Positions 860-14,114 of a stretch of 64,000 bases of DNA are shown here, one piece after another. The stretch covers positions 744,001 to 808,000 of the forward strand of contig AP024674.1 of the NCBI GenBank assembly GCA_025998755.1, written 5' to 3'. Origin of the DNA: Armatimonadota bacterium (lineage in GTDB: Bacteria; Armatimonadota; UBA5829; DSUL01). Both the position numbers and the translations under genes were made by a program. Each line of letters begins with the position of its first letter. Position 1 is the first letter of the stretch. Below the pieces are notes generated by a model. It ran no database searches, had not been told where the DNA came from, and worked only from the letters and a program-made list of their open reading frames with translations.

Positions 860-1681
860 TTGACGAAAGATAGCATTGCGCCCATTGAAGGGTCCTGGGC
901 GCTGATACTCGGGGCGTCCAGCGGATTCGGCGAGGCCGCCAGCATTGCACTGGCGCGGGATCTGAAGATGAATATCTTCGGCGTGCATCTGGATCGCCGC
1001 GCGACGTACGATAACGTGGAGCGTATCAAAGCGGCCATCCAGGAGACCGGCAGCCGTGCGGTATTCTTCAATGTGAACGCCGCAGACGAGGAGAAGCGCC
1101 AGTCGGTCATCGAGAGCATTCGCCAGGAGCTGGACGGGGCCGAGGAGGGTAAGAAGATCCGCGTGCTTCTGCACTCCCTGGCTTTCGGAACGCTGAAGCC
1201 CTACATAGCCGACAGGCCGGAGGACGCCATCAACCGGGCAGCGATGGACATGACCGTTGACGTCATGGCGCACAGTCTGGTCTACTGGGTGCAGGATCTC
1301 ATTCGTAATAATCTGTTCAGCCGGGGCGGGCGCGTGTTCGGGATGACCAGCGCGGGGGACTATCACGCATGGAAGGCTTACGGCGCGGTCTCGGCCGCCA
1401 AATGCGCGCTGGAGTCCCACATCCGCCAGCTGACCCTGGAACTGGCTCCGTTCGGCATCACGGCTAACTCCATCCGCGCCGGAGTCACGGACACCCCCGC
1501 ACTCCGCAAGATCCCCGGGAACGAAAGGATGATTTCGGAGGCGCTGCGGCGCAACCCCAACGGACGGCTGACTACGCCGGAGGACGTGGCCGGCGCCATC
1601 GTCTGCCTGTCCCGCCCGGAGGCGCAATGGATCACGGGGAATGTGATCGGCGTAGACGGCGGGGAGTTCGTCACGGACTGA
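860..1681 (+). CDS. SDR-family oxidoreductase resembling enoyl-ACP reductase (FabI type)
   Basis: This is a predicted NAD(P)H-dependent reductase of 273 residues. The glycine-rich cofactor motif GASSGFGEAAS lies near residue 15. The catalytic pair is in YGAVSAAK, a Tyr-x6-Lys spacing typical of enoyl-ACP reductases rather than the Tyr-x3-Lys of classical SDRs. The stretch LHSLAFG corresponds to the VHSIGFA strand of FabI, and a C-terminal ITGNVIGVDGG closes the fold. The TTG at 860 is chosen because AGGAGG at 845-850 sits nine bases upstream and the residues before it lack SDR homology. It probably works in fatty-acid elongation, but other SDR substrates are possible since no fab genes flank it. 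Confidence 0.75.
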   Translation: MTKDSIAPIEGSWALILGASSGFGEAASIALARDLKMNIFGVHLDRRATYDNVERIKAAIQETGSRAVFFNVNAADEEKRQSVIESIRQELDGAEEGKKIRVLLHSLAFGTLKPYIADRPEDAINRAAMDMTVDVMAHSLVYWVQDLIRNNLFSRGGRVFGMTSAGDYHAWKAYGAVSAAKCALESHIRQLTLELAPFGITANSIRAGVTDTPALRKIPGNERMISEALRRNPNGRLTTPEDVAGAIVCLSRPEAQWITGNVIGVDGGEFVTD

Positions 1682-1710
1682 CGGACAGACCTGCGGGCGC
1701 GGCCGCCGTA

Positions 1711-4700
1711 GTGGCTCTGGCGGCCGCTGCCGGGATTCTGCTGATGGGTGCCGCGGCCGGCGCCGAAAGCGGCCGGATCGTTTACGCGGTGAGTGATGTC
1801 ACCGGCCCGGAGGGCTCGCGCCCGTATGAGATGGAGTGGGCGGGAAGGGTGGAGGATGACCGTCCTCCCCTGGTGGACTTCGAGGATCTGCGGGGCTGGA
1901 CAGTCCACTGCGATACGGGAGTAGCGGCCACTCTACAGCGCAGCCGGGAGCAAAAGCTTTTCGGGGAGACCACGGCCCGTCTGGCCTATCGCCTGGATTC
2001 CGGAACATCCGGGGCTCTACGCATACGGCCTCCGTCACCTGACTCCGTCCCGGGGCCGTTCGACTCGGTCACTCTCTGGATCTACGGCAACAACTGGGAG
2101 TGGGATCCCGATCCCGGGACGCCTCCAGTGGACGTGTCCGTCATCCTGCTGGACCGGCAAGGTGTGGAGGTGGAGATTCCTCTCACCCGGGTTCGCTGGA
2201 AGGAGTGGTGGCTGGCCCACCGCCGGTTGAGCGCGGAGCAGCAGGAACGGCTCCGGGGTGGCAGTTTCGCAGGGCTGGCGGTGCGCGGCATCAGCAATCG
2301 TGAGGACCGCTTCCTTTTCCTGGATAACCTCGCGTTCTTCCGTGAGGAGCTTGCTCCCCTGTCCTTCGAACCGCGTCCCCGGCGAGGAGTGGACCCCTTT
2401 CCGGGGCAATCCCCGGGTCTGAACACCGGCCCCGGACGCCTGCCTTTTCCCACCCGCGACGAGACCATTCTTCCGATGCAGTTCGCGACAGGGTGGGAGA
2501 ACTCCATTGAGCAGAGGGGAAATTCATTCCTCTTCCGTTACCGGGGGCCGGATGCGCTCATCGAGTATGAATGGTGCCCGGCTGAGGGTGGCCCGGAGAC
2601 GATCGTGGCCCGGCTCTCCGGCGAGACGATCCGGCCCTTGGCGGGATGCGGGGTGGTTTTCGAGGAGCAGCCTCCGCTCCATCCTGTGAAATCCGCCAGG
2701 GTTGGCGACTCGGTGCGTGCCGTCTATCGCTGCGGCGACCAACAGGTGGAGTGGACTGCGCACATCTGGCAGAAATCTCTGGTGCTGGACTGCATATCGC
2801 AAGGCGGAAGGGCGCTGGGGGTGGACCTGGGACGCTTCGAGGGAGTCCGTGGGGCCAGAGCCATTCAGGCACCGTTCATTACCTTCGGTGCGGGGAACAA
2901 TCCTGCGGTGCTGATGGGCCGGAGCCGTCACGGGGCGTGGTTCGGGTCCGTCTGGCTGGATTGGTATCGCTCCAACGCGAGCGAACTCTACGGAGCTCCG
3001 TCGCTGGAAGGGGACGGTATCCGGATCAATGGCGGGTCGCGGTACCATCCCAGGACGGACGGCCGCCGGAACGACGTTTTCGAGCGCATATTCCTGACTC
3101 TGTCCCCCTTGTTCGAAGAGGTATATCCCAGCATCGACAATCCTGCTTCCCCGGCTGTCCGGGAGGCGGGAAAATACCTGTGGCAGGAGTCCTGGGGGCC
3201 TCAAGACTACGCCTCTCAGATGGAGCGTTCGCGCACACTGGCGTCCTATGGCATCACGCGTCTCATTCAGTGCAATCACGAGGATACCTGGCGCGATGGA
3301 GGCGAAAGCTTCACGCTTCGTCTCAGGTCGGCTCCAGCCAAGGGCGGAGATGAAGCGCTGAAGGCTTATCTGGAGCACCAGAAGTCGCTGGGCTGGCGGG
3401 TGGGGCTCTACACGAACTACACGGACGTTGCGTGCGTCAACGAGCACTGGCATCCCGATCTGGTCCAGCGAACATCCGATGGTCAGTGGCGGCCGGGCTG
3501 GCCGCGGAATTATGCCCTGAAGCCGTCCAGGGCCGTTGAACTGGATGCCCAGCTTGCCCCGAAGATTCAGCAAAAGTTTGGGACCAACGCCGCCTATACC
3601 GACGTCCATACTGCTGCGTCTCCGTGGCGATACACCGATTACGATGCCCGTGTGCCCGGTGCGGGAACCTTCGCAGCAACATTCTATGCCTACGGGGAGC
3701 TTTTGCTGAACGATCAGCGGGTCTACGGCATTGCGCACTCCGAAGGCACATATCAGTGGCTGTATGCGGGGCTGGCCACGGGGAATTATGCGCTCTGCTA
3801 CGGAGGACTGGATCCTGCCCACGAGCCGCTCAATGTAGCATTTTCTCTTTACCAGATCCATCCCCGCGAGGCGGATATCGGGATGGCGTGGGAGAGCTAC
3901 TTCCTGCGCTCCTTCCCGGGTTGGGACTGCCCGGAAAAGATTGACGCCTCCATTGACCACTTCCTGGCGGCGACGTTGGCGTACGGCCACATGGGTTGGC
4001 TGGTCACGGAGACCAACGGAATCCAGCGAACGTGCCGTAGCTACTACTTGCTGCTGCCCATCACGGAGCGCTACTGCGGCCTGACTCCGGAGAGATTGGC
4101 CTATGCGGACGCCCGTGGCCGTGTGCGGAGCGCTTCCGAGGCGTGGGCTGAGGGGTTTATCTCGCTTTCGCGTCTCTGTGTCACGTATCCCGGCCTGGAG
4201 CTTCGTGTCAACGGCGGTGCAGAGACCTGGGAGATCCTTTCACCTGCCGGCAAACTGATCTTGCCTCAGTGGGGGTGGGCTGCTTGGTCGGAAGACGGAG
4301 TGATGTTCCAGTTCTCCGGGTTGCACGAGCGGCGCCGTGTGGACTATTGCCGGACGGAGGATTATGAGTATCTGGACGGCAGGGGCGATATGACACAGAT
4401 CGGAGCCCTGGCGTGCGCCGGTGGAGCAGTCCGGCGCGGCAACGAGATCCTGGATATCTACGGCAACGAGCAGATCGGCTTCCGCGCCGGAGCCGGTGGC
4501 GGCCGGGTGGAGGCCTTCGGGCCGGCGGGGGAACTACTCTCGGAGGTTCCCGTGCGGCGCGGGCGCAACGGCTGGCTGTGGTTCAGGACAGTTCCTGGGG
4601 GCCGGTGGTATCGGTTCATTCCAGACTCTGCGGCCCCCGCACTGCCGGTGTCCGGTCCCGAGGAAGCCGCGCCCGGCGAGGCGGTGCGTATCGAACTGGT

Positions 4701-5622
4701 GGATGGTGGAAAAACCGTGAGCCGTGTCGTGACTATCCCGTCTGATGCGGTGCCGGGCGAGCGCGTGTGGCTGGATGCGGATGGCGTGGAGGTGGATTTC
4801 AGGGTAGTCCCGGTTGTTCAGATATGCACCACAACTCCGGAGAGGCTCCCGGGAGGAGGACTCGGCATTCCGGTAACCGTGTCCTGTCGGGGTCGGGGAG
4901 TCGGATCCGAGCTGGAGATTCTAGAGCAAAAGGGCGTGCAGGCTCGCCTATCGGATCTTGCCCAGAAGGGCAGAAGACTGAAGGGTGTCCTTCAGATCCA
5001 TCCGCTGCCGGGGCACGGCGGCGAGGCCTTCGTGACGGTTTCGGCCCGATGTGGAGACCAGGTGGAGCGCATCAGGCTTGAGTTTGAGTCACAACAGCAG
5101 CGGCGCTCGGACCTCTTGCTTGTGGGTCAGGGAACGCCGTGGCGCTGGGGCACTCTGGACCGCGCCGGCACCATCCGATGGAGCGACACCGCCAGCGGGG
5201 CCTGCTGGCACGTGGACGGGGTGCCGGTGGGAGGAGTTCTCAGAACGGCCATTTTCAGCCATCCCCCGTATGTCGGTCGGGTAGGGTCCGTGTTCGGAGA
5301 GACGGAAAACATCGAATCCGCTGAAGACCTGGAGTTTTCTTGCTTGGTCGGCATCCGTGATGGCGCCGGTCCGTCCGATGGGGTGACGTTCTCTGTATGG
5401 CGCATCGAGGAGGGGTGTGAACCGGAGCTGCTGGCTGAGCGGCGCGTGGGACAGGGGCGCTGGGAGCAGATCACGGCCCCGGTTCCACGAAGTGGGCGGT
5501 CGTTTCGCCTGAGGCTGGAGGCAGATTGCGGTCCGGCGGACAACCCGGACTCCGACTGGGCCGCCTGGGCGGACGTGCGTCTCAGGAGTGTGGACGCGAG
5601 CCCGGTGTTGCGGCTACGATAG
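1711..5622 (+). CDS. Large secreted glycoside-hydrolase-like protein
   Basis: The protein has about 1,300 residues and begins with an Ala/Leu-rich secretion-like segment ending AAAGAESG. The region coded by about 1860-2340 looks like a jelly-roll carbohydrate-binding domain (VDFEDLRGW, VTLWIYGNN, FLFLDNLAFF). The part coded by about 3180-4110 looks like a TIM-barrel glycosidase. It has QDYASQMERSRTLASYGITR, then WRVGLYTNYTDV, then FGTNAAYTDVHTA, where the Asp is a plausible nucleophile. Two beta-rich domains follow, the last resembling a LamG or CBM-like sandwich. The start is uncertain. GTG 1711 is used, but CTG 1678 (overlapping the SDR stop and following GGGGAG) and ATG 1627 are also in frame. 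The exact GH family was not identified. Confidence 0.6.
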   Translation: MALAAAAGILLMGAAAGAESGRIVYAVSDVTGPEGSRPYEMEWAGRVEDDRPPLVDFEDLRGWTVHCDTGVAATLQRSREQKLFGETTARLAYRLDSGTSGALRIRPPSPDSVPGPFDSVTLWIYGNNWEWDPDPGTPPVDVSVILLDRQGVEVEIPLTRVRWKEWWLAHRRLSAEQQERLRGGSFAGLAVRGISNREDRFLFLDNLAFFREELAPLSFEPRPRRGVDPFPGQSPGLNTGPGRLPFPTRDETILPMQFATGWENSIEQRGNSFLFRYRGPDALIEYEWCPAEGGPETIVARLSGETIRPLAGCGVVFEEQPPLHPVKSARVGDSVRAVYRCGDQQVEWTAHIWQKSLVLDCISQGGRALGVDLGRFEGVRGARAIQAPFITFGAGNNPAVLMGRSRHGAWFGSVWLDWYRSNASELYGAPSLEGDGIRINGGSRYHPRTDGRRNDVFERIFLTLSPLFEEVYPSIDNPASPAVREAGKYLWQESWGPQDYASQMERSRTLASYGITRLIQCNHEDTWRDGGESFTLRLRSAPAKGGDEALKAYLEHQKSLGWRVGLYTNYTDVACVNEHWHPDLVQRTSDGQWRPGWPRNYALKPSRAVELDAQLAPKIQQKFGTNAAYTDVHTAASPWRYTDYDARVPGAGTFAATFYAYGELLLNDQRVYGIAHSEGTYQWLYAGLATGNYALCYGGLDPAHEPLNVAFSLYQIHPREADIGMAWESYFLRSFPGWDCPEKIDASIDHFLAATLAYGHMGWLVTETNGIQRTCRSYYLLLPITERYCGLTPERLAYADARGRVRSASEAWAEGFISLSRLCVTYPGLELRVNGGAETWEILSPAGKLILPQWGWAAWSEDGVMFQFSGLHERRRVDYCRTEDYEYLDGRGDMTQIGALACAGGAVRRGNEILDIYGNEQIGFRAGAGGGRVEAFGPAGELLSEVPVRRGRNGWLWFRTVPGGRWYRFIPDSAAPALPVSGPEEAAPGEAVRIELVDGGKTVSRVVTIPSDAVPGERVWLDADGVEVDFRVVPVVQICTTTPERLPGGGLGIPVTVSCRGRGVGSELEILEQKGVQARLSDLAQKGRRLKGVLQIHPLPGHGGEAFVTVSARCGDQVERIRLEFESQQQRRSDLLLVGQGTPWRWGTLDRAGTIRWSDTASGACWHVDGVPVGGVLRTAIFSHPPYVGRVGSVFGETENIESAEDLEFSCLVGIRDGAGPSDGVTFSVWRIEEGCEPELLAERRVGQGRWEQITAPVPRSGRSFRLRLEADCGPADNPDSDWAAWADVRLRSVDASPVLRLR

Positions 5623-5651
5623 CTGAAACTGCTTCGCAGATCGGGAGTCTC

Positions 5652-6749
5652 ATGCAGGACGCGCAGACGCTGAAATTGTCGCCCCTGGACAGTGTGCACG
5701 CTGCTTCCGGCGCCAGGATGGTGGAGTTCGCGGGCTGGCGCCTGCCCCTGATGTTCACCTCAATCCTCCAGGAGCATCGGGCTGTACGGGAGCGCGCCGG
5801 GCTGTTCGACATTTCCCACATGGCGCAGATCATTGTGGAGGGCGACGGGGCAAAAGGATGGCTGCAAAGCCTTATCACGAATGATGTCTGCCTCGCTCCG
5901 CCGGGCAAGGGCATTTACACTTTCCTGACCAACGAGCGCGGTGGAGTCGTCGATGACGGCTTCGTCTTCCATCTGCCTGATGGCCGCTTCCTGCTGGTGT
6001 TCAATGCTTCCCGGGAGGCGGCGGTGCTTGAGCACCTCCGTTCCCGTTTATCGGGGGATGTGTGCGTGGTCGCCCGTCTGGACCGCGGCGCGCTCGCCGT
6101 GCAAGGACCGGCTGCCGCAGCCATTATGCAGGCTGTCACTCCGGGGGCGGAGAACCTCCCGCGCAGAGGCATCGCCGCGGTAGCCATAGCAGGTGCACCT
6201 GTATGGATATCACGCACGGGCTACACGGGTGAGGACGGCTTCGAGCTCTTCTTCCACGCCGGACATGCAGAGAGCGTCTGGCGCGCTTTGGCGGCCTCAG
6301 GGGAATCCGCCGGGATGGCCCTCTGCGGTCTGGGAGCGCGGGACACGCTGCGGCTGGAGATGGGATATCCTCTTTACGGTCACGAATTGGACGAGACCAC
6401 CTCTCCTTTCGAGATCGGCTACGGATGGGCCGTGAAGCTGGATAAGGGTGTTGACTTTCCAGGCAGGGAGGCTCTGCGGCGCGAAAAGGAGGCCGGGCCG
6501 CTGCGGACACTGGCCGGTCTGCTGCCGGAAGGCCGGAGTACTCCCCGCGAGGGAAGCCGGGTGCTTTGCGGCGGAGAGGTGGTGGGCCGGGTGACCAGCG
6601 GTACGTTCTCGCCCTCACTTGAGCGGCCCATCTGCCTGGCCCTGATTGCTTTGGATGTGCGGGGTGGGCTTGTGCTGGAGGTGCGGGAGAAACAGGTTCC
6701 GGCGCGGCAGACCGCATTACCGTTTTACCGACCGGCGCGAGGGCACTGA
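5652..6749 (+). CDS. gcvT: Aminomethyltransferase, T-protein of the glycine cleavage system
   Basis: GcvT transfers the methylene group from aminomethyl-lipoyl H-protein to tetrahydrofolate and releases ammonia. The 365-residue length is normal. The N-terminal GARMVEFAGW segment, the folate-binding DISHMAQI strand with its conserved Asp, and the SRTGYTGEDGFELF motif are all family hallmarks. The ATG at 5652 is chosen because family homology begins at once, with GGGAG just upstream. It opens the run gcvT-gcvH-gcvPA-gcvPB, only 29 bases after the glycosidase-like gene. No glycine riboswitch fits in that gap. Confidence 0.96.
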   Translation: MQDAQTLKLSPLDSVHAASGARMVEFAGWRLPLMFTSILQEHRAVRERAGLFDISHMAQIIVEGDGAKGWLQSLITNDVCLAPPGKGIYTFLTNERGGVVDDGFVFHLPDGRFLLVFNASREAAVLEHLRSRLSGDVCVVARLDRGALAVQGPAAAAIMQAVTPGAENLPRRGIAAVAIAGAPVWISRTGYTGEDGFELFFHAGHAESVWRALAASGESAGMALCGLGARDTLRLEMGYPLYGHELDETTSPFEIGYGWAVKLDKGVDFPGREALRREKEAGPLRTLAGLLPEGRSTPREGSRVLCGGEVVGRVTSGTFSPSLERPICLALIALDVRGGLVLEVREKQVPARQTALPFYRPARGH

Positions 6750-6799
6750 GCTACCCTCCGGGAGTATACACGCCGGCGCAGAAAGGACGCAGACGAGAC

Positions 6800-7183
6800 A
6801 TGGATCTTTCGGACTACAGGTTCACCGAATCGCACGAGTGGGTACAGGTGCGCGAGGGGCTGGCCTACGTGGGCATAACGGACCATGCCCAGGAGCAGAT
6901 CACGGACATCACGGCGGTGGAACTGCCGGCCGAAGGCAAAACGGTGAAGGCGGGGGACGAAATCGCGCTCGTGGATTCCGTGAAGTCCACGTTCAGCATC
7001 TTTGCGCCGGTGGGGGGCAAGATCGTACGGGTCAACGAGTCAGTCGTCGAAGACCCGTCTATTGTCAACACCTCCCCTTACGCCGATGGGTGGCTGGTAG
7101 CCATCGAGATGTCCGACCCTTCCGAGATAGACGCGCTAATGGACGAGTCCGAATATGAAGAGCTGATCGCCGAGGAGGAGTGA
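6800..7183 (+). CDS. gcvH: Glycine cleavage system H protein (lipoyl carrier)
   Basis: The H protein shuttles the aminomethyl intermediate among the P, T and L proteins on a lipoyl arm. The 127-residue protein has the usual start FTESHEWVQV, the ITDHAQEQITDI strand and the lipoyl-lysine motif VDSVKSTFSIFAPV, with Lys in the conserved loop. It ends with the acidic SEYEELIAEEE tail common to the family. The gene follows gcvT by 50 bases and precedes gcvPA by six. The lipoylation enzyme for this Lys is probably the ligase encoded at 9991. Confidence 0.97.
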   Translation: MDLSDYRFTESHEWVQVREGLAYVGITDHAQEQITDITAVELPAEGKTVKAGDEIALVDSVKSTFSIFAPVGGKIVRVNESVVEDPSIVNTSPYADGWLVAIEMSDPSEIDALMDESEYEELIAEEE

Positions 7184-7189
7184 CGGGCA

Positions 7190-8530
7190 TTGGACTGGAC
7201 CGGAAGTTCTCCTGAAGAGCGGCAGCAGATGCTGGGCGCTATCGGCGTGGATTCCGTGGAGGCGCTGCTGGCGGCCATACCCCGTCGCGTGGAGGAGCTT
7301 CCGGGCATCCCGGCCGGTCTGGATGAGGCATCGCTTCTGCGCCACGTGGCGGCTCTCGCGGAGCGCAACCATCCACCCGCGCCGGGAAAGTGCTTCATCG
7401 GAGCGGGGGCGTATGAACACGCCGCTCCGGCAGTGGTGGAAGCGCTGATCTCCCGCGGAGAGTTCAGCACAACTTATACTCCCTACCAGCCCGAGGTCAG
7501 TCAGGGGACACTGATTGCAGGGTTCGAGTTCCAGACGCTCATCACCCGGCTGACCGGTCTGGACGTGGCCAACTCCTCCATGTATGACGGCGCTTCCGCG
7601 GCTGCGGAGGCAGCGCTCCTCGCGATCCGCTACACAGGCCGCAGTGCCGTCGTTGTCTCCGGGGTTATACATCCGGAATGGTTGTGCGTCCTCAGGACTT
7701 ATCTCTCCGGTGTCGGCGCGCAGATCCGGGTCGTTGCGCCGGAAAACGGCCGGACTCCCCTGGGCCAGATTCAGGCGTGCCTTGATGAAGACGTGGCCTG
7801 CCTCCTGATACAGCAGCCCAATTTTCTGGGCCAACTGGAAGATCTGAGGGCTGCTGCCGAAGCGGCGCACGCTGTCGGATCGCTCTTTGCTGCCGCGAGT
7901 AATCCGCTGGCGCTGGGAATCCTGGCCAGCCCTGGCGAATGCGGGGCGGACATCGCTGTGGGGGATGTCCAGCCGCTGGGTATCCCTCTCAGCTTCGGCG
8001 GCCCTTATGCGGGCTACATGGCGGTGAGGGAGCCGCTGGTCCGGCAGATGCCGGGGAGGCTGGTCGGGATGGCCCGCGATGCGCAGGGACGCAGAGGTTT
8101 CACGCTGACCCTTCAAACGCGTGAACAGCATATCCGCCGCGAGCGCGCCACCAGCAACATCTGTACGAATCAGGCCCTCGTGGCCCTGGCCGCTACGATC
8201 TATCTCTGTTCGCTGGGCAAGCACGGGCTGCGGGAGGTGGCCCGCCAGAATGTCGTGCGCGCTCACCGGGCCGCTCAGCGGCTCCAGGGGATTCCGGGGG
8301 TCAGGCTCGCCTTCGACGGACCGTATTTCAATGAGTTCGTTCTTCGTCTGCCGCGCAAGGCGGGAGAAGTCTGCAACCACGTCCGGGAGCGCAGTGGCAT
8401 CTGGCCCGGACTGGACCTGGGGCGTTTCTGGCCGGAGATGTCAGATTGCCTGATGGTATGCGTGACAGAGACAAAAACTCGGGGGGACGTCGAAGCTCTG
8501 AGGGCGGCCCTGGAGGATGCTCTGAAGTGA
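7190..8530 (+). CDS. gcvPA: Glycine dehydrogenase (decarboxylating) subunit 1
   Basis: This is the N-terminal half of the split P-protein, which decarboxylates glycine with PLP and loads the H-protein lipoyl arm. The 446-residue length fits subunit 1. Diagnostic segments are the FIGAGAYEH motif, the TPYQPEVSQGTL segment and SFGGPYAGYMAV. The TTG start at 7190 lies downstream of the GGAGG at the end of gcvH. The stop overlaps the gcvPB start by four bases, indicating translational coupling and equal subunit production. Confidence 0.96.
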   Translation: MDWTGSSPEERQQMLGAIGVDSVEALLAAIPRRVEELPGIPAGLDEASLLRHVAALAERNHPPAPGKCFIGAGAYEHAAPAVVEALISRGEFSTTYTPYQPEVSQGTLIAGFEFQTLITRLTGLDVANSSMYDGASAAAEAALLAIRYTGRSAVVVSGVIHPEWLCVLRTYLSGVGAQIRVVAPENGRTPLGQIQACLDEDVACLLIQQPNFLGQLEDLRAAAEAAHAVGSLFAAASNPLALGILASPGECGADIAVGDVQPLGIPLSFGGPYAGYMAVREPLVRQMPGRLVGMARDAQGRRGFTLTLQTREQHIRRERATSNICTNQALVALAATIYLCSLGKHGLREVARQNVVRAHRAAQRLQGIPGVRLAFDGPYFNEFVLRLPRKAGEVCNHVRERSGIWPGLDLGRFWPEMSDCLMVCVTETKTRGDVEALRAALEDALK

Positions 8531-9987
8531 CGGACATTCCGCTGATCTTCGAGATCTCGCAGCCGGGGCGGCGGGGCTGGTCTCCCCCCGCGCTTGATGT
8601 GGAGGATGCTCCACTGGAGGAGATGCTCCCTGCCGAACACGTGCGGGCGGACCCGGCTGAGCTTCCGGAAGTGACCGAGCTTGACGTGGTGCGCCACTTC
8701 ACTCGGATCTCAGCGCTTAATATGTGCATAGACACCACTTTCTATCCGCTGGGATCCTGCACGATGAAATACAATCCGCGCGTCACCGAAAAATGCGCGC
8801 GGCTTCCCGCCTTCGACCTGCATCCGTACGCGCCGTTGGAATGCTCTCAGGGGACTCTTGAGCTTTTGCACGGCCTTCAACAGATGCTGAGTGAACTGTG
8901 CGGAATGCACGCCTTCACACTGCATCCAGCGGCGGGTGCGCAGGGCGAGTTCGCCGGGATCCTGGTCGCGCGGGCTTGGCACGAGGCGCGTGGTGAGCGG
9001 CGGACTAAGGTGGTCATCCCGGATTCGGCCCACGGTACCAATCCGGCGTCGGCCCGGCTGGGTGGATATCAGGTGGTGACCGTGCGCTCCGATGAGCGGG
9101 GTCGCACCAACCCTTCAGCGCTGCGGGAGGTTATGGACGGCGATGTGGCGCTGTTCATGCTGACCAACCCGAACACTCTTGGTCTGTTCGAGGACGGCAT
9201 CCTGGAGATTGCGGAGATCGTCCACGAGGCCGGAGCGCTCTTGTATCTGGATGGCGCAAACTTGAATGCGCTGGCCGGCATCGTTCGCCCTGGAGATCTG
9301 GGCTTCGACATTGTGCACGTGAATACGCACAAGACGCTCTCCACACCGCACGGAGGTGGGGGACCGGGCGCGGGTCCGGTGGGTGTGGCCGAGCACCTGG
9401 CGGACTTCTTGCCGGGGTGGGTCGTCGAGAAAGATGCGGAAAACGGCTTCCGGCTGCGCCGGCCGGAGAGGTCTGTGGGACAACTTCGCTCTTTCTTCGG
9501 AAGCACCGGAGTGCTGATCCGGGCATACGCTTACCTCCGAGCCCTGGGCGCACGCGGACTCCGGGAGAACAGCCTCACGGCCATCCTCAATGCCAATTAT
9601 CTGCGGATCCGGTTGCGGGAGACGTTTGCTCCCCACGTGGACGAACCGTGCATGCACGAATGCGTCTTGTCCGCGAAAAATCAGAAGAAGCGAGGGGCGC
9701 GGGCATTGGATATCGCCAAGCGGCTTCTGGACTACGGATTCCACCCGCCCACAGTGTATTTCCCTCTGATTGTTGACGAGGCGTTGATGATCGAGCCCAC
9801 GGAGACCGAAAGCAAGACCACGCTGGATGCCTTCGTGGACGCGCTTATGGCGATCGATCGCGAGATAGATGAGTGTCCGGACGTGGTGCGGGGCGCGCCT
9901 CACTGCACGCCAGTGGGGCGGCTGGACGAGGTCTCCGCCGCGCGCCGCCCGGTTCTGACGATGCCTGCCGATCGCGCAGCGGAGTAA
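8527..9987 (+). CDS. gcvPB: Glycine dehydrogenase (decarboxylating) subunit 2
   Basis: This is the PLP-carrying half of the split P-protein, 486 residues. LIFEISQPGRRGW near the N-terminus is the classic subunit-2 opening. The segment FYPLGSCTMKYNP binds the cofactor phosphate region, and the Schiff-base Lys lies in NTHKTLSTPHGGGGPG. The GTG at 8527 overlaps the gcvPA stop. An upstream ATG at 8446 lies inside gcvPA and would add residues without homology. The lipoyl ligase gene follows after three bases. Confidence 0.96.
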   Translation: MTDIPLIFEISQPGRRGWSPPALDVEDAPLEEMLPAEHVRADPAELPEVTELDVVRHFTRISALNMCIDTTFYPLGSCTMKYNPRVTEKCARLPAFDLHPYAPLECSQGTLELLHGLQQMLSELCGMHAFTLHPAAGAQGEFAGILVARAWHEARGERRTKVVIPDSAHGTNPASARLGGYQVVTVRSDERGRTNPSALREVMDGDVALFMLTNPNTLGLFEDGILEIAEIVHEAGALLYLDGANLNALAGIVRPGDLGFDIVHVNTHKTLSTPHGGGGPGAGPVGVAEHLADFLPGWVVEKDAENGFRLRRPERSVGQLRSFFGSTGVLIRAYAYLRALGARGLRENSLTAILNANYLRIRLRETFAPHVDEPCMHECVLSAKNQKKRGARALDIAKRLLDYGFHPPTVYFPLIVDEALMIEPTETESKTTLDAFVDALMAIDREIDECPDVVRGAPHCTPVGRLDEVSAARRPVLTMPADRAAE

Positions 9988-9990
9988 CCT

Positions 9991-10737
9991 GTGGATATAA
10001 GGGTGGTCTCAACCTCACCCATGAGCGGTGAGATGAATATGGAGGTGGATGTTGTGCTGACGGAGCGGGCTGTGCGGGAGGGTCAGGTTCAGCTACGCTT
10101 CTTCCGATGGTCCCAACCCACAGTTACAGTGGGCAGGACTCTTCCGGTTGAACAGGGGACGGCGGCGGCGGTGTTGTTCGGCGGTGCGCGTCTGGTGCGG
10201 CGTCCCACGGGAGGCGGTGTGGTGTTCCACGCGGACGAGATGTCGCTTTCGCTTGCGTGGCCACGCTCTGCCAGCAGGTTGTTGGGAGGGCTTCGGGACT
10301 CGTACTGCCGCATCCACCGCGCGATCCGGGATGCCCTGATGGATTGCGGTATAAGCTGCCTGCAGGCGGAGTGCGGACAAAAACCGGCAGGAGTGATGTG
10401 CCAGTCTTCCATCGTAGCAGGCGATGTTATCTCTCCTGCGGGCACGAAACTGGCCGGGGGAGCCCAGTGGCTCGCGAAAGGGGCGGTGTTGTACCAGGGG
10501 CATCTCTGGCTTCGGGCCTTGTCGGCGCTGGAAGAGGCCCTGGCTCACCGCCTGGCGGATTGCTTCGGAGCGTCTCCGGTGCGGGACGGTTTGACTCAAG
10601 AGGAACTCTGTATCGCGGCGGAGCGTTGCCACAGGTGGTGTGACCTGGCCCGTGTGAACCCAGCCGGGGCGGGCCCCGATAGCCTGCGCCTGGGCGTTGG
10701 CGGATCTAGTGCATCATATGACCGAAGAGAACCATAA
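9991..10737 (+). CDS. Lipoate-protein ligase / octanoyltransferase (LplA/LipM-like)
   Basis: This enzyme attaches lipoate or octanoate to carrier lysines, most likely the H protein encoded upstream. The 248-residue protein has the family signature RRPTGGGVVFH, which binds the acyl-adenylate or acyl chain. TKLAGGAQ supplies the conserved catalytic Lys. A Cys in VMCQSSIV stands near the position of the acyl-accepting Cys of LipM, which favours an octanoyltransferase, but an ATP-dependent ligase is not excluded. The gene starts at GTG 9991, three bases after gcvPB, and its end overlaps the next gene. The C-terminal extension with several Cys and Arg residues is not typical. Confidence 0.85.
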   Translation: MDIRVVSTSPMSGEMNMEVDVVLTERAVREGQVQLRFFRWSQPTVTVGRTLPVEQGTAAAVLFGGARLVRRPTGGGVVFHADEMSLSLAWPRSASRLLGGLRDSYCRIHRAIRDALMDCGISCLQAECGQKPAGVMCQSSIVAGDVISPAGTKLAGGAQWLAKGAVLYQGHLWLRALSALEEALAHRLADCFGASPVRDGLTQEELCIAAERCHRWCDLARVNPAGAGPDSLRLGVGGSSASYDRREP

Positions 10738-12199
10738 CCGGGACAATCGATCCGCATCGGTCCAACAGGGTGGAGTGGCTCCTTCCGGCTGCGCACTCAC
10801 GGAGGCTGAACCGTGCATGCCGTCTGCGGCCGAAGAAGTCGCCTGCGCTCTTTCCCTCGGGGGAATCTGGCAGCCGGATGACCCGAACCATCTTGTTTCA
10901 CCGTTCCCCTTCAGGCTCTCACCGGAAGAAACCGCGCTCTTACGTGGTCTGGGTCCTGCGCTTTTATCTTTCTACCGCGCGCTGAACCGTCTTTGGTTTG
11001 GCAAGGGCTACGATTGGGCGAAGGCTTGGCTGGACCGGGGTAAACCGGACTGGTTGCTGGAGACGGCCCGGATGGGGCACTTCAAGCAGCATCTGCCCCT
11101 TCTCATCCGGCCAGATCTGATGCTGGGCCGCGGGCGGATGTGGATTACCGAACTGGACTCCGTGCCTGGCGGAGCTGGACACACGGCTGCGATGGCGAGG
11201 GCCTATGCTGAGGCAGGCTTCAAGGTCCTGGGCGGCGCTGACGGTATTCCCTCGTGTTTTGCGGGCGCCCTGCGCTCGTTCGCCGGTGTGCCGGACCCTG
11301 TAGTTGCGATCGTGGTCTCGGACGAATCCGACGATTACCGGCCCGAAATGCGCTGGATGGCGGCGGCGCTCAGAGAGGAGGGCTTGGATGCCGCCTGCGT
11401 GCATCCCGCGGAGCTGATGTTCGATGAAGAAGGACTGTGGCTGTCGCGGCAGAACTCCCGGCAACGCGTCGATCTTGTGTGGCGGTTTTTCGAGCTGTTC
11501 GATCTCCGCAACGTGCCGAAGTCCGAGCTGATTGTCTATGCCGCCCGGAAGCGGAAGGTCCGGATATCCCCTCCGCTCAAGCCGTTCCTGGAGGAGAAAC
11601 TGGCGCTTGCGCTTCTGCATCATCCATCGCTGGAAAAGTTCTGGGAGACGGAGATGGAGGGACACTTCACTTTGCTGAAGTCTGTTGTGCCTCCAACCTG
11701 GGTGATGGACCCGTCCCCCGTACCGCCCCACGCCGAGATCTGTGGCCTGCGCTTCCGGGGACATCCTGTCCGCGACTTTAGGGAGCTTGCGGAGGCTACG
11801 CAGAGTGAGCGCCGTCTGGTGCTGAAGCCGAGCGGGTTTTCGCCTCTGTCTTGGGGAGCGCGGGGGGTGGTTGTGGGACACGACGTGTCCCGGGAAGTAT
11901 GGAGCCAGGCGCTGGAGCAGGCGCTTGGTTCCTTCGATTCCACGGTTTACGTGCTGCAGGAGTTCCGGGAGGGGCGGCGCGTAGAAGTTCCCTATTATGA
12001 CGCCCGCCAGGGGCGTGTCGGGCTGCTCCGCGGGCGGACTAGGCTCTGTCCGTATTACTATGTCTCTGAAGGGCAGGTTGAGCTTGCAGGCGTCTTGGCC
12101 ACCGTCTGCTCTGATGAGAAGAAGCTGATTCACGGCATGAGGGACGCGGTGATGACGGTGTGCTCGGAAGGAGGAGACAGCAGTGTTCAGGATGGATGA
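10718..12199 (+). CDS. Circularly permuted ATP-grasp-like protein of unknown substrate
   Basis: The protein has about 493 residues and no named family could be assigned. TELDSVPGGAGHTAAM resembles the substrate-side loop of circularly permuted ATP-grasp proteins. It is followed by VDLVWRFFELFD and by SPPLKPFLEEKLALALL, where Lys sits at the usual ATP-binding start of the permuted core. Further on, RRLVLKPSGFSPLSWGARGV gives a second nucleotide-binding Lys and glycine loop, and VLQEFREGRRVEVPYY gives the lid strand. Such enzymes join carboxylates to amines. ATG 10718 overlaps the ligase gene; ATG 10817, with GGAGG at 10801, is an alternative. The stop overlaps the aminomutase-like gene by 17 bases, so the two are likely co-translated. 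Confidence 0.55.
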   Translation: MTEENHNRDNRSASVQQGGVAPSGCALTEAEPCMPSAAEEVACALSLGGIWQPDDPNHLVSPFPFRLSPEETALLRGLGPALLSFYRALNRLWFGKGYDWAKAWLDRGKPDWLLETARMGHFKQHLPLLIRPDLMLGRGRMWITELDSVPGGAGHTAAMARAYAEAGFKVLGGADGIPSCFAGALRSFAGVPDPVVAIVVSDESDDYRPEMRWMAAALREEGLDAACVHPAELMFDEEGLWLSRQNSRQRVDLVWRFFELFDLRNVPKSELIVYAARKRKVRISPPLKPFLEEKLALALLHHPSLEKFWETEMEGHFTLLKSVVPPTWVMDPSPVPPHAEICGLRFRGHPVRDFRELAEATQSERRLVLKPSGFSPLSWGARGVVVGHDVSREVWSQALEQALGSFDSTVYVLQEFREGRRVEVPYYDARQGRVGLLRGRTRLCPYYYVSEGQVELAGVLATVCSDEKKLIHGMRDAVMTVCSEGGDSSVQDG

Positions 12200-13139
12200 C
12201 GACGATTCCCGGCTGCTGGAACGAAGGTCCCGGTATATTGAGAACCTTGTTGCGAGCGAGCCCGCCATCGCGCGGCAGTTCGTCTGGGACGACCAGGAGT
12301 TGATCACCCTGGACCACGAAGCCGCCGACCCGCTCATGGAAGATGAGCACATGGCCGTCCGCGGGCTGGTCCACAAGTATGCGAACCGCGCGCTGCTTCT
12401 CTTGACCGCTCAGTGTGCCACGTACTGTCGCTTCTGCACGCGCAAACGCATCGTCTCGCATGTCGAGCGCGGCCGAATCCGCAAGCCGGATGTGGACGAG
12501 TGGAAGCGCTACCTGACAGAGCATCCGGAGATCCGCGACGCCATTCTCTCCGGCGGTGATCCTCTCTTCGTCTCCACTGAGCTTTTCTCGTATGTCATCG
12601 AGACCCTGTCGTCGATCGAAAGCCTGAAAGTCGTCCGGATCGGCACGCGCGTCCCTGTCACGGATCCGCTGCTTGTGACGGACGAGAAGATAGGGATCTT
12701 GAAGCGTCTGCCGCAGACGCTATATATCGGACTGAACTTTGAGCATCCCGCGGAGATCACGCCTGAAGTCCGGGAAGCCGTGGAGAAGCTGAAGACCACG
12801 GGCGGGCAGCTTTACAGCCAGTCCGTTTTCCTGAAAGGCGTGAACGATGATTACTACATCCTCTACGAGCTGTTCACCACGCTGTATGAAATGGGCGTGC
12901 GGCCGTATTACATCTACCGGTGCGATCCAGTGGAGGGAGTAAGCCACTTCCGGGCGGATTTCGAAAAGGAGCGCGAGATCATGACGCGGCTGCGCTCCAC
13001 GCTGAGCGGCCTGGCCTGCCCCACGTATGTGATAGACACGCCGTTCGGCAGCGGTAAGATCCCGGTGCCGCTGAAATACTGGGACTGCGACGCTGAGGAG
13101 TATCTGGACTTCGAAGGGGTCCGCCACAGGAGGATCTGA
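12183..13139 (+). CDS. Lysine 2,3-aminomutase-like radical SAM enzyme
   Basis: This is a PLP- and S-adenosylmethionine-dependent radical enzyme of 318 residues. The iron-sulfur motif is CATYCRFCTRKR, exactly the KamA form. LSGGDPL is the SAM-binding strand. The PLP Lys is in TPFGSGKIPV. The two Asp residues that hold the lysine side-chain amine in the clostridial enzyme appear to be kept, in RCDPVEGVSHFR and YVIDTPF. This argues for lysine rather than glutamate as substrate. It is about 100 residues shorter than KamA, and the zinc-binding C-terminal cysteines are not visible. GTG 12183 follows GGAGG. It could make beta-lysine for an osmolyte, for a modification such as that of EF-P, or for the ATP-grasp protein encoded just upstream. 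Confidence 0.85.
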   Translation: MFRMDDDDSRLLERRSRYIENLVASEPAIARQFVWDDQELITLDHEAADPLMEDEHMAVRGLVHKYANRALLLLTAQCATYCRFCTRKRIVSHVERGRIRKPDVDEWKRYLTEHPEIRDAILSGGDPLFVSTELFSYVIETLSSIESLKVVRIGTRVPVTDPLLVTDEKIGILKRLPQTLYIGLNFEHPAEITPEVREAVEKLKTTGGQLYSQSVFLKGVNDDYYILYELFTTLYEMGVRPYYIYRCDPVEGVSHFRADFEKEREIMTRLRSTLSGLACPTYVIDTPFGSGKIPVPLKYWDCDAEEYLDFEGVRHRRI

Positions 13140-13143
13140 GATC

Positions 13144-13386
13144 GTGAAGCTGTACGTCCTTCGCACCTGTCCCTACTGCATCCGCGTGCTCAGATGGCTG
13201 GAAGGGCGTGATCTGCCCGTGGAAATCGTGGAAGTGCCTTTCGCTCATTCTCAAAGGGCTGAGCTCCACGCCGTCAGCGGGCAGACTTATGTGCCCACTC
13301 TGGTGGACGGGGAAACGGTCATTGCAGACGACGATGAGGCTATCCTGGAGTACTTGAAGCAGAAGGAGCGACTGCGCGTGGCGTAG
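13144..13386 (+). CDS. Glutaredoxin-like thiol-disulfide protein
   Basis: This 80-residue protein has the glutaredoxin active site CPYC at residues 9-12 of a minimal thioredoxin fold (LYVLRTCPYC). It also has the cis-Pro motif YVPTLVDG and the C-terminal IADDDEAILEYL helix. It is expected to reduce disulfides or carry a thiol in the cytoplasm. GTG 13144 begins four bases after the aminomutase-like gene, so the two are co-transcribed. A redox role toward the neighbouring enzymes is inference. Confidence 0.88.
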   Translation: MKLYVLRTCPYCIRVLRWLEGRDLPVEIVEVPFAHSQRAELHAVSGQTYVPTLVDGETVIADDDEAILEYLKQKERLRVA

Positions 13387-13427: not shown

Positions 13428-14114
13428 ATGCCGAAACTGACATATTACGGGCACGACGCTTTCGTTATTGAGACGGAGCGACACAGGATCGCCATTGACC
13501 CGTTCATCACGGGAAATCCTTTCGCTTCCGTGAAACCGGAAGAGTTGAAGGTGGATTACGTGCTCATTACCCATGGGCACGGCGACCATCTGGGGGACGG
13601 GCTGGAGATTGCAAAGCGCTTCGGCGCCACGGTCATCAGTACATTTGAACTGGCTGGCTACTGTCAGCGGCAGGGCGCCAAGGCGCACCCGATGCATATC
13701 GGCGGCGCTCATGACTTCGACTTCGGACGGGTGAAGCTGACGATCGCCCACCACGGGAACACTGTGGAGACCCCTTCCGGCTTCCTCTCCCTGGGCCCGC
13801 CTTGCGGTCTGCTGGTGATGGCTGACGGGCGCACACTGTATCACGCCGGCGATACGGGGCTGTTTTTAGATATGAAGCTCATCGGCGAGATGCACCCAAT
13901 AGATCTCGCGCTGCTGCCCATCGGTGACAACTTCACCATGGGGATTGACGACGCTGTTAAAGCTGTGGAGCTGCTTCAGCCGAAGCTTGCAGTGCCGATG
14001 CACTACAACACTTTCGATCTCATCAAGGCAGACCCGTCCGAGTTCGTCAGCAAGGTGCAGGCGGCGGGCCGCAGCGCTGCCATCCTGAGAGTGGGTGAGA
14101 CGATGACCTATTGA
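13428..14114 (+). CDS. UPF0173-family metal-dependent hydrolase (metallo-beta-lactamase fold)
   Basis: The 228-residue protein starts with the UPF0173 signature LTYYGHDAFVIE. The metal-binding motif is THGHGDHLGD, with further ligands at AHHG, HAGDTGLF (the bridging Asp) and the C-terminal MHYNTF. Length and motif order match UPF0173 (YtkL-like) rather than RNase Z or a true beta-lactamase. The physiological substrate of this family is not settled. AGGAGG lies about eight bases before ATG 13428. It is the last gene before the terminator at 14143, closing the run that begins with gcvT. Confidence 0.9.
   Translation: MPKLTYYGHDAFVIETERHRIAIDPFITGNPFASVKPEELKVDYVLITHGHGDHLGDGLEIAKRFGATVISTFELAGYCQRQGAKAHPMHIGGAHDFDFGRVKLTIAHHGNTVETPSGFLSLGPPCGLLVMADGRTLYHAGDTGLFLDMKLIGEMHPIDLALLPIGDNFTMGIDDAVKAVELLQPKLAVPMHYNTFDLIKADPSEFVSKVQAAGRSAAILRVGETMTY

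Follow-up and report, generated by a model that had tools for sequence, protein, structure and literature searches.

What do an ATP-grasp protein and a lysine 2,3-aminomutase-like enzyme make together when their genes are kept side by side? The question is raised by a window of 64,000 nucleotides (the whole stretch of DNA analysed here) from an Armatimonadota bacterium whose genome is a single contig of 3.29 Mb. Three same-strand open reading frames are intact in this window, encoding in that order an ATP-grasp protein, a KamA-type aminomutase and a glutaredoxin:

10718..12199, + strand: ATP-grasp amide ligase of a family without a name, predicted glutathione synthetase/glutathionylspermidine synthetase fold (open reading frame, fold, relatives)
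12183..13139, + strand: KamA-family radical S-adenosylmethionine (SAM) aminomutase, lysine type, short form (TIGR00238, match to 2a5h, residues kept)
13144..13386, + strand: glutaredoxin (CPYC), an optional companion (Pfam Glutaredoxin/GST_N over cut-off)

We consider it probable that this cassette makes a β-lysine amide, lysine being converted to β-lysine and then joined by amide ligation to a common partner. It is the combination of an ATP-grasp ligase with a lysine-type aminomutase that suggests such a conjugate; the idea was already put forward in the first-pass annotation, and it is now supported by the predicted fold, the retained active-site residues and the conserved linkage. The overlapping or near-touching gene arrangement described there is likewise confirmed. 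The ATP-grasp gene starts at ATG 10718, 20 nucleotides within the preceding lipoate-protein ligase-like gene (the start of the L026 ortholog agrees). The aminomutase frame starts at GTG 12183 or ATG 12192, giving an overlap of 8-17 nucleotides with the ATP-grasp gene, and the glutaredoxin gene begins 4 nucleotides after it.

Linkage of the ATP-grasp and aminomutase genes

Within the class to which the window belongs, KamA is present in 17/17 genomes that have the ATP-grasp gene against 1/11 of those that lack it (the latter as fragments; Fisher 8e-7). The aminomutase lies directly 3' of the ATP-grasp gene in 16 of the 17, the exception (G220) having an unlinked KamA with no AblB on the same contig. 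The pair is also found in Nitrospirota (n=245), where 123 genomes carry the ATP-grasp gene: 121 have both genes and two the ATP-grasp gene only (at a contig end in both cases), with 16 having KamA only and 106 neither. According to the coordinates the two genes are adjacent in 117 of these 121 genomes and apart in G310, G320, G329 and the distant G462. Among the fetched loci having enough DNA (74, mostly from other groups), the aminomutase is immediately downstream in 67; one of the seven non-linked loci, L083, is an assembly gap (a run of N). Eight genomes were chosen for having no adjacent aminomutase, and all eight contain KamA elsewhere, with at least one copy of the lysine type in each.

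Since the Nitrospira loci are syntenic, their counts overstate independence. The linkage is supported independently by its occurrence in Armatimonadota, Nitrospirota, Nitrospinota, Bacillota and Gammaproteobacteria, and given this recurrence across several phyla the pairing is not due to chance. The first-pass annotation had treated all three genes as coupled. The ATP-grasp/KamA pair stands, as it co-occurs in genomes without epmA and its linkage is conserved across phyla, whereas glutaredoxin (downstream in 52/74 loci and in 12/17 class genomes) is a frequent but optional companion and thus not a defining part. No other constant operon member was found; the dCTP deaminase (named by eye) and its neighbours further downstream reflect Nitrospira synteny.

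Lysine-type aminomutases also occur in another setting. At L227:2530-4020, L229:5424-6987 and L237:4510-6209 unlinked copies adjoin FolB (dihydroneopterin aldolase) or FolE (GTP cyclohydrolase I). These three genomes belong to uncultured phyla and each has the ATP-grasp gene elsewhere; FolB and FolE (a folate/pterin link) were not seen beside the cassette itself.

The two enzymes and their predicted reactions

The window aminomutase scores 238 bits against the NCBIfam subfamily model TIGR00238 (cut-off 199.2). With the AblA equivalog TIGR03820 it reaches 275 bits, under the 525-bit cut-off, and the short Armatimonadota form, in which the C-terminal domain is missing, falls below all equivalog cut-offs. 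Its identity to the solved lysine 2,3-aminomutase 2a5h is 40-42% (E 3e-60), and C78/C82/C85, R87, D248, D285 and K292 of the window protein correspond to C125/C129/C132, R134, D293, D330 and K337 of 2a5h. We take these to be the three cluster cysteines (CxxxCxxC), the arginine holding the carboxylate, the two aspartates binding the lysine side chain, and the lysine bound to pyridoxal phosphate (PLP). R134 and both lysine-binding aspartates are retained in every complete cassette aminomutase read. Glutamate-type KamA relatives in other ATP-grasp-bearing genomes carry K/N at the two aspartate positions, so the residue test discriminates. Copies with the glutamate-type pattern (F/K/N) are located at L233:377-2681 and also in L159, L161 and L172, the one in L233 adjoining a thioredoxin-reductase-like gene.

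In phylogenetic trees the partner aminomutases fall into at least three separately supported KamA lineages: an Armatimonadota clade (support 100/100), a Nitrospirota/Nitrospinota/gammaproteobacterial clade (99/99, including unlinked copies from Poribacteria and Latescibacterota) and a Bacillota clade (100/100). AblB-paired aminomutases stand apart from all three. When Armatimonadota are compared with the rest, identity of the ATP-grasp protein is 46% (55% within groups), whereas that of the aminomutase drops to 37%. The simplest reading of these sequence patterns would be that the ligase was inherited and the aminomutase exchanged. Given both the repeated recruitment and the contrast in identity, the conserved requirement looks like a supply of β-lysine.

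The ATP-grasp protein is less easily placed by sequence. No curated family in Pfam or NCBIfam scores over cut-off for the window protein, and the ATP-grasp profile found no match in the PDB when searched by sequence alone. A scan with one genome per species yields at least 567 relatives. A weak match to Pfam GSP_synth is seen in 10/17 relatives (best E 8e-6) and not in the window protein. Two AlphaFold models were compared with known structures, one of the window protein (predicted local distance difference test, pLDDT, 79.8) and one of a Nitrospira ortholog (pLDDT 89.8, from a 30-sequence alignment). The best Foldseek matches of both are eukaryotic glutathione synthetases (E 5e-16 and 1e-16, respectively); glutathionylspermidine synthetase and homoglutathione synthetase also rank near the top. 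Structure comparison with YgiC/YjfC, homoglutathione synthetase, Gss and Cp1B gives Z 24-27 over 340-420 residues, with 25.4 for the window model and 27.3 for the Nitrospira ortholog model (to YjfC), and the predicted fold is shared across the whole chain. Other ATP-grasp enzymes stay at Z <9 with one exception of about 12. The RxD...ExD/N, PPxK...K and KP motifs are colinear with those of YgiC/Gss. Overall, the predicted fold is clearly that of an ATP-grasp enzyme of the glutathione synthetase/glutathionylspermidine synthetase kind. A very distant member of the family (L255:3958-5292, 444 amino acids) is located 5' of an apparent large molybdopterin-type oxidoreductase gene, with no aminomutase nearby.

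In E. coli, the annotation of YgiC and YjfC is that of peptide-spermidine ligases. The cassette protein resembles these and Gss in its predicted fold near full length, its colinear motifs and its presumed amide ligation chemistry, but it shares only about 12-14% identity with them, has another ATP/metal loop and no amidase domain, and is linked to an aminomutase rather than to DUF1190 genes. The likeness to eukaryotic glutathione and homoglutathione synthetases and to Cp1B is again one of predicted fold, with Foldseek E values down to 1e-16 and Z of 24-26; identity is about 13%, the gene partners differ, and no GCS2-type glutamate-cysteine ligase was found in the window's own genome. Cp1B, a fungal ligase of the E-64 pathway, uses ATP to couple an epoxysuccinate with an amino acid (PMC12568646) and as such offers a precedent for carboxylic acid-amino acid joining in a small-molecule pathway.

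Taken together, the conserved residues suggest that the radical SAM/PLP aminomutase would convert L-lysine to β-lysine. From its fold and linkage, the ATP-grasp protein would then phosphorylate a carboxylate with ATP and couple it to an amine, β-lysine being one of the two partners. Apart from these two, no enzyme is linked to the cassette with any consistency, and the second partner should therefore be a usual component of the cell. The glutaredoxin, where a lineage has one, probably keeps a thiol on the product or on the enzyme reduced.

A number of observations weigh against a β-lysine amide as the product. Profile comparison by hhalign gives little support for the superfamily (probability 14%, E 0.0019), so that the assignment depends on the predicted structures. 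Where YgiC has KPIxSREG, the metal/ATP loop of the cassette protein reads KPSGFSxxAWGxRGV, for which reason ATP-grasp activity is a prediction. Lysine-type residues, as read from sequence, do not prove substrate or stereochemistry. Moreover the genomes are related, and the Fisher value for the Nitrospirota association (6e-49) is, like all counts given here, uncorrected for relatedness. Finally, in G294 and G295 the sole lysine-type KamA is the AblB-paired copy.

Alternative readings of the product

If the cassette does make a β-lysine amide, the partner is more likely a small molecule (an amino acid, short peptide or thiol) than a protein such as elongation factor P (EF-P). The first-pass annotation had also raised protein modification and noted that EpmA is absent, which proves true of the whole genome and not of the window alone: EpmA (GenX) scores over cut-off in 0/30 genomes tested, the best matches being lysyl-tRNA synthetase-sized frames. 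An ATP-grasp protein attaching β-lysine to a protein, for instance to Lys34 of EF-P, in place of EpmA would be in line with this absence and with the EF-P loop lysine (PGKG), kept in 27/27 genomes read. The parallel with the EpmB/EpmA system would be a short KamA-type supply of β-lysine followed by attachment (predicted for the cassette), with an ATP-grasp ligase replacing the tRNA-synthetase paralogue. The window aminomutase is indeed as short as EpmB and joins it in one tree (97/86), but this join was flagged as long branches meeting; pairwise identity (31% to EpmB against 40-44% to lysine aminomutases) led us to reject an EpmB identity, and at the position of D330 EpmB has another residue. 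The EF-P lysine is equally present in cassette-negative class genomes and hence does not discriminate, no efp gene was seen linked to the cassette, and the nearest folds use small molecules or peptides. A specific tie to protein modification is thus not borne out, and we regard this alternative as unlikely. Its wider form, an EpmA-independent β-lysylation in which a Gss-fold ATP-grasp ligase modifies EF-P or another protein directly in Nitrospira, Armatimonadota and others, appears improbable as well.

A thiol pathway can be considered too, in which β-lysine would be attached to glutathione or γ-glutamylcysteine. The resulting thiol would resemble homoglutathione or glutathionylspermidine and be served by the glutaredoxin. 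The top Foldseek matches and the frequent presence of glutaredoxin within the operon agree with such a pathway; the 22 of 74 loci from which glutaredoxin is missing do not. In addition, a GCS2-type glutamate-cysteine ligase was not found in the window's own genome (the search did not cover the GshA type of E. coli), which weakens a glutathione-based thiol and argues against a glutathionylspermidine synthetase proper. Overall, GCS2 was reported in 6/30 genomes, five of these as fragmentary low-score matches. We give this pathway little chance of being the right one.

It might also be argued that the substrate of the aminomutase is not lysine but a derivative of it or some other amino acid, and that the ATP-grasp protein takes the resulting product. 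KamA enzymes for arginine, glutamate and others exist, and the failure of the short Armatimonadota form to reach any equivalog cut-off would fit. The presence of R134 and both lysine-binding aspartates throughout the complete cassette aminomutases, against K/N in the glutamate-type relatives, makes another substrate doubtful.

Least probable is that the aminomutase is an AblA for the osmolyte N-epsilon-acetyl-β-lysine and its proximity to the ATP-grasp gene incidental: it shares family and active-site residues with AblA as an enzyme of the lysine 2,3-aminomutase type, but AblB (TIGR03827) is absent from its own genome, it lies on a separate tree branch and (in Armatimonadota) lacks the C-terminal domain, AblB in the class cassette genomes that have it (G227, G241) adjoins another KamA copy away from the cassette, and the ATP-grasp linkage is conserved across phyla. 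The osmolyte pathway was consequently rejected for the cassette copy. Of the two results named in the first-pass annotation as refuting its idea, neither was obtained: the window aminomutase does not group with AblA enzymes or with an AblB partner, and linkage to the ATP-grasp gene is conserved.

Aminomutase genes also occur next to ligases in a different, unrelated arrangement at L258:3944-7986 and L256:1574-5869, in genomes without the ATP-grasp family studied here. In these loci KamA adjoins two D-Ala-D-Ala-ligase-like ATP-grasp genes, followed in L258 by a GNAT gene. This suggests that ATP-grasp ligation of a KamA product is a wider theme, and it favours a small-molecule product.

Neighbouring genes and significance

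The cassette is flanked in the window by genes that we list as context:

5526..9987, + strand: gcvT, gcvH, gcvPA, gcvPB (glycine cleavage), lineage-specific neighbours
9991..10737, + strand: lipoate-protein ligase-like (lplA-like) gene, outside the conserved unit (LplA-B_cat, 48 bits)
13428..14114, + strand: metal-dependent hydrolase (NF001911 over cut-off)

The first-pass annotation had placed the three genes at the end of the glycine cleavage operon. In the window gcvT, gcvH, gcvPA and gcvPB, then the lplA-like gene, do lie upstream of the ATP-grasp gene, but this linkage is limited to G000, G218 and G220, which represent two genera in the window's family; glycine cleavage was therefore rejected as a functional partner. 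Elsewhere the lplA-like gene adjoins the cassette in G218 and G220 only, and the metal-dependent hydrolase is found 3' of it in the window's family only (G218, G219, G220). Just 5' of the glycine cleavage genes a protein of 1331 amino acids (1627-5622) matches no Pfam family over cut-off. PADLOC gave no match. In Bacillota (L049:9881-15550 and L050) the cassette is followed by genes for an apparent ABC transporter ATPase and two membrane proteins, recognized by reading the sequence and not by family search; these might serve in export of the product.

In the open-access literature on aminomutases with ATP-grasp, with glutaredoxin/glutathionylspermidine or with Nitrospira we found nothing relevant to the pairing, which is weak evidence of absence. 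The ligase is not named by any model in Pfam or NCBIfam, even though the pair occurs in about half of the sampled Nitrospirota genomes, Nitrospira included. Its conservation across very distant bacteria points to a widespread β-lysine product. If our reading is true, the ATP-grasp protein would represent a new family of ligases that act on a β-amino acid, and a β-lysine conjugate would be abundant or important in major nitrifiers as well as in several uncultured phyla.

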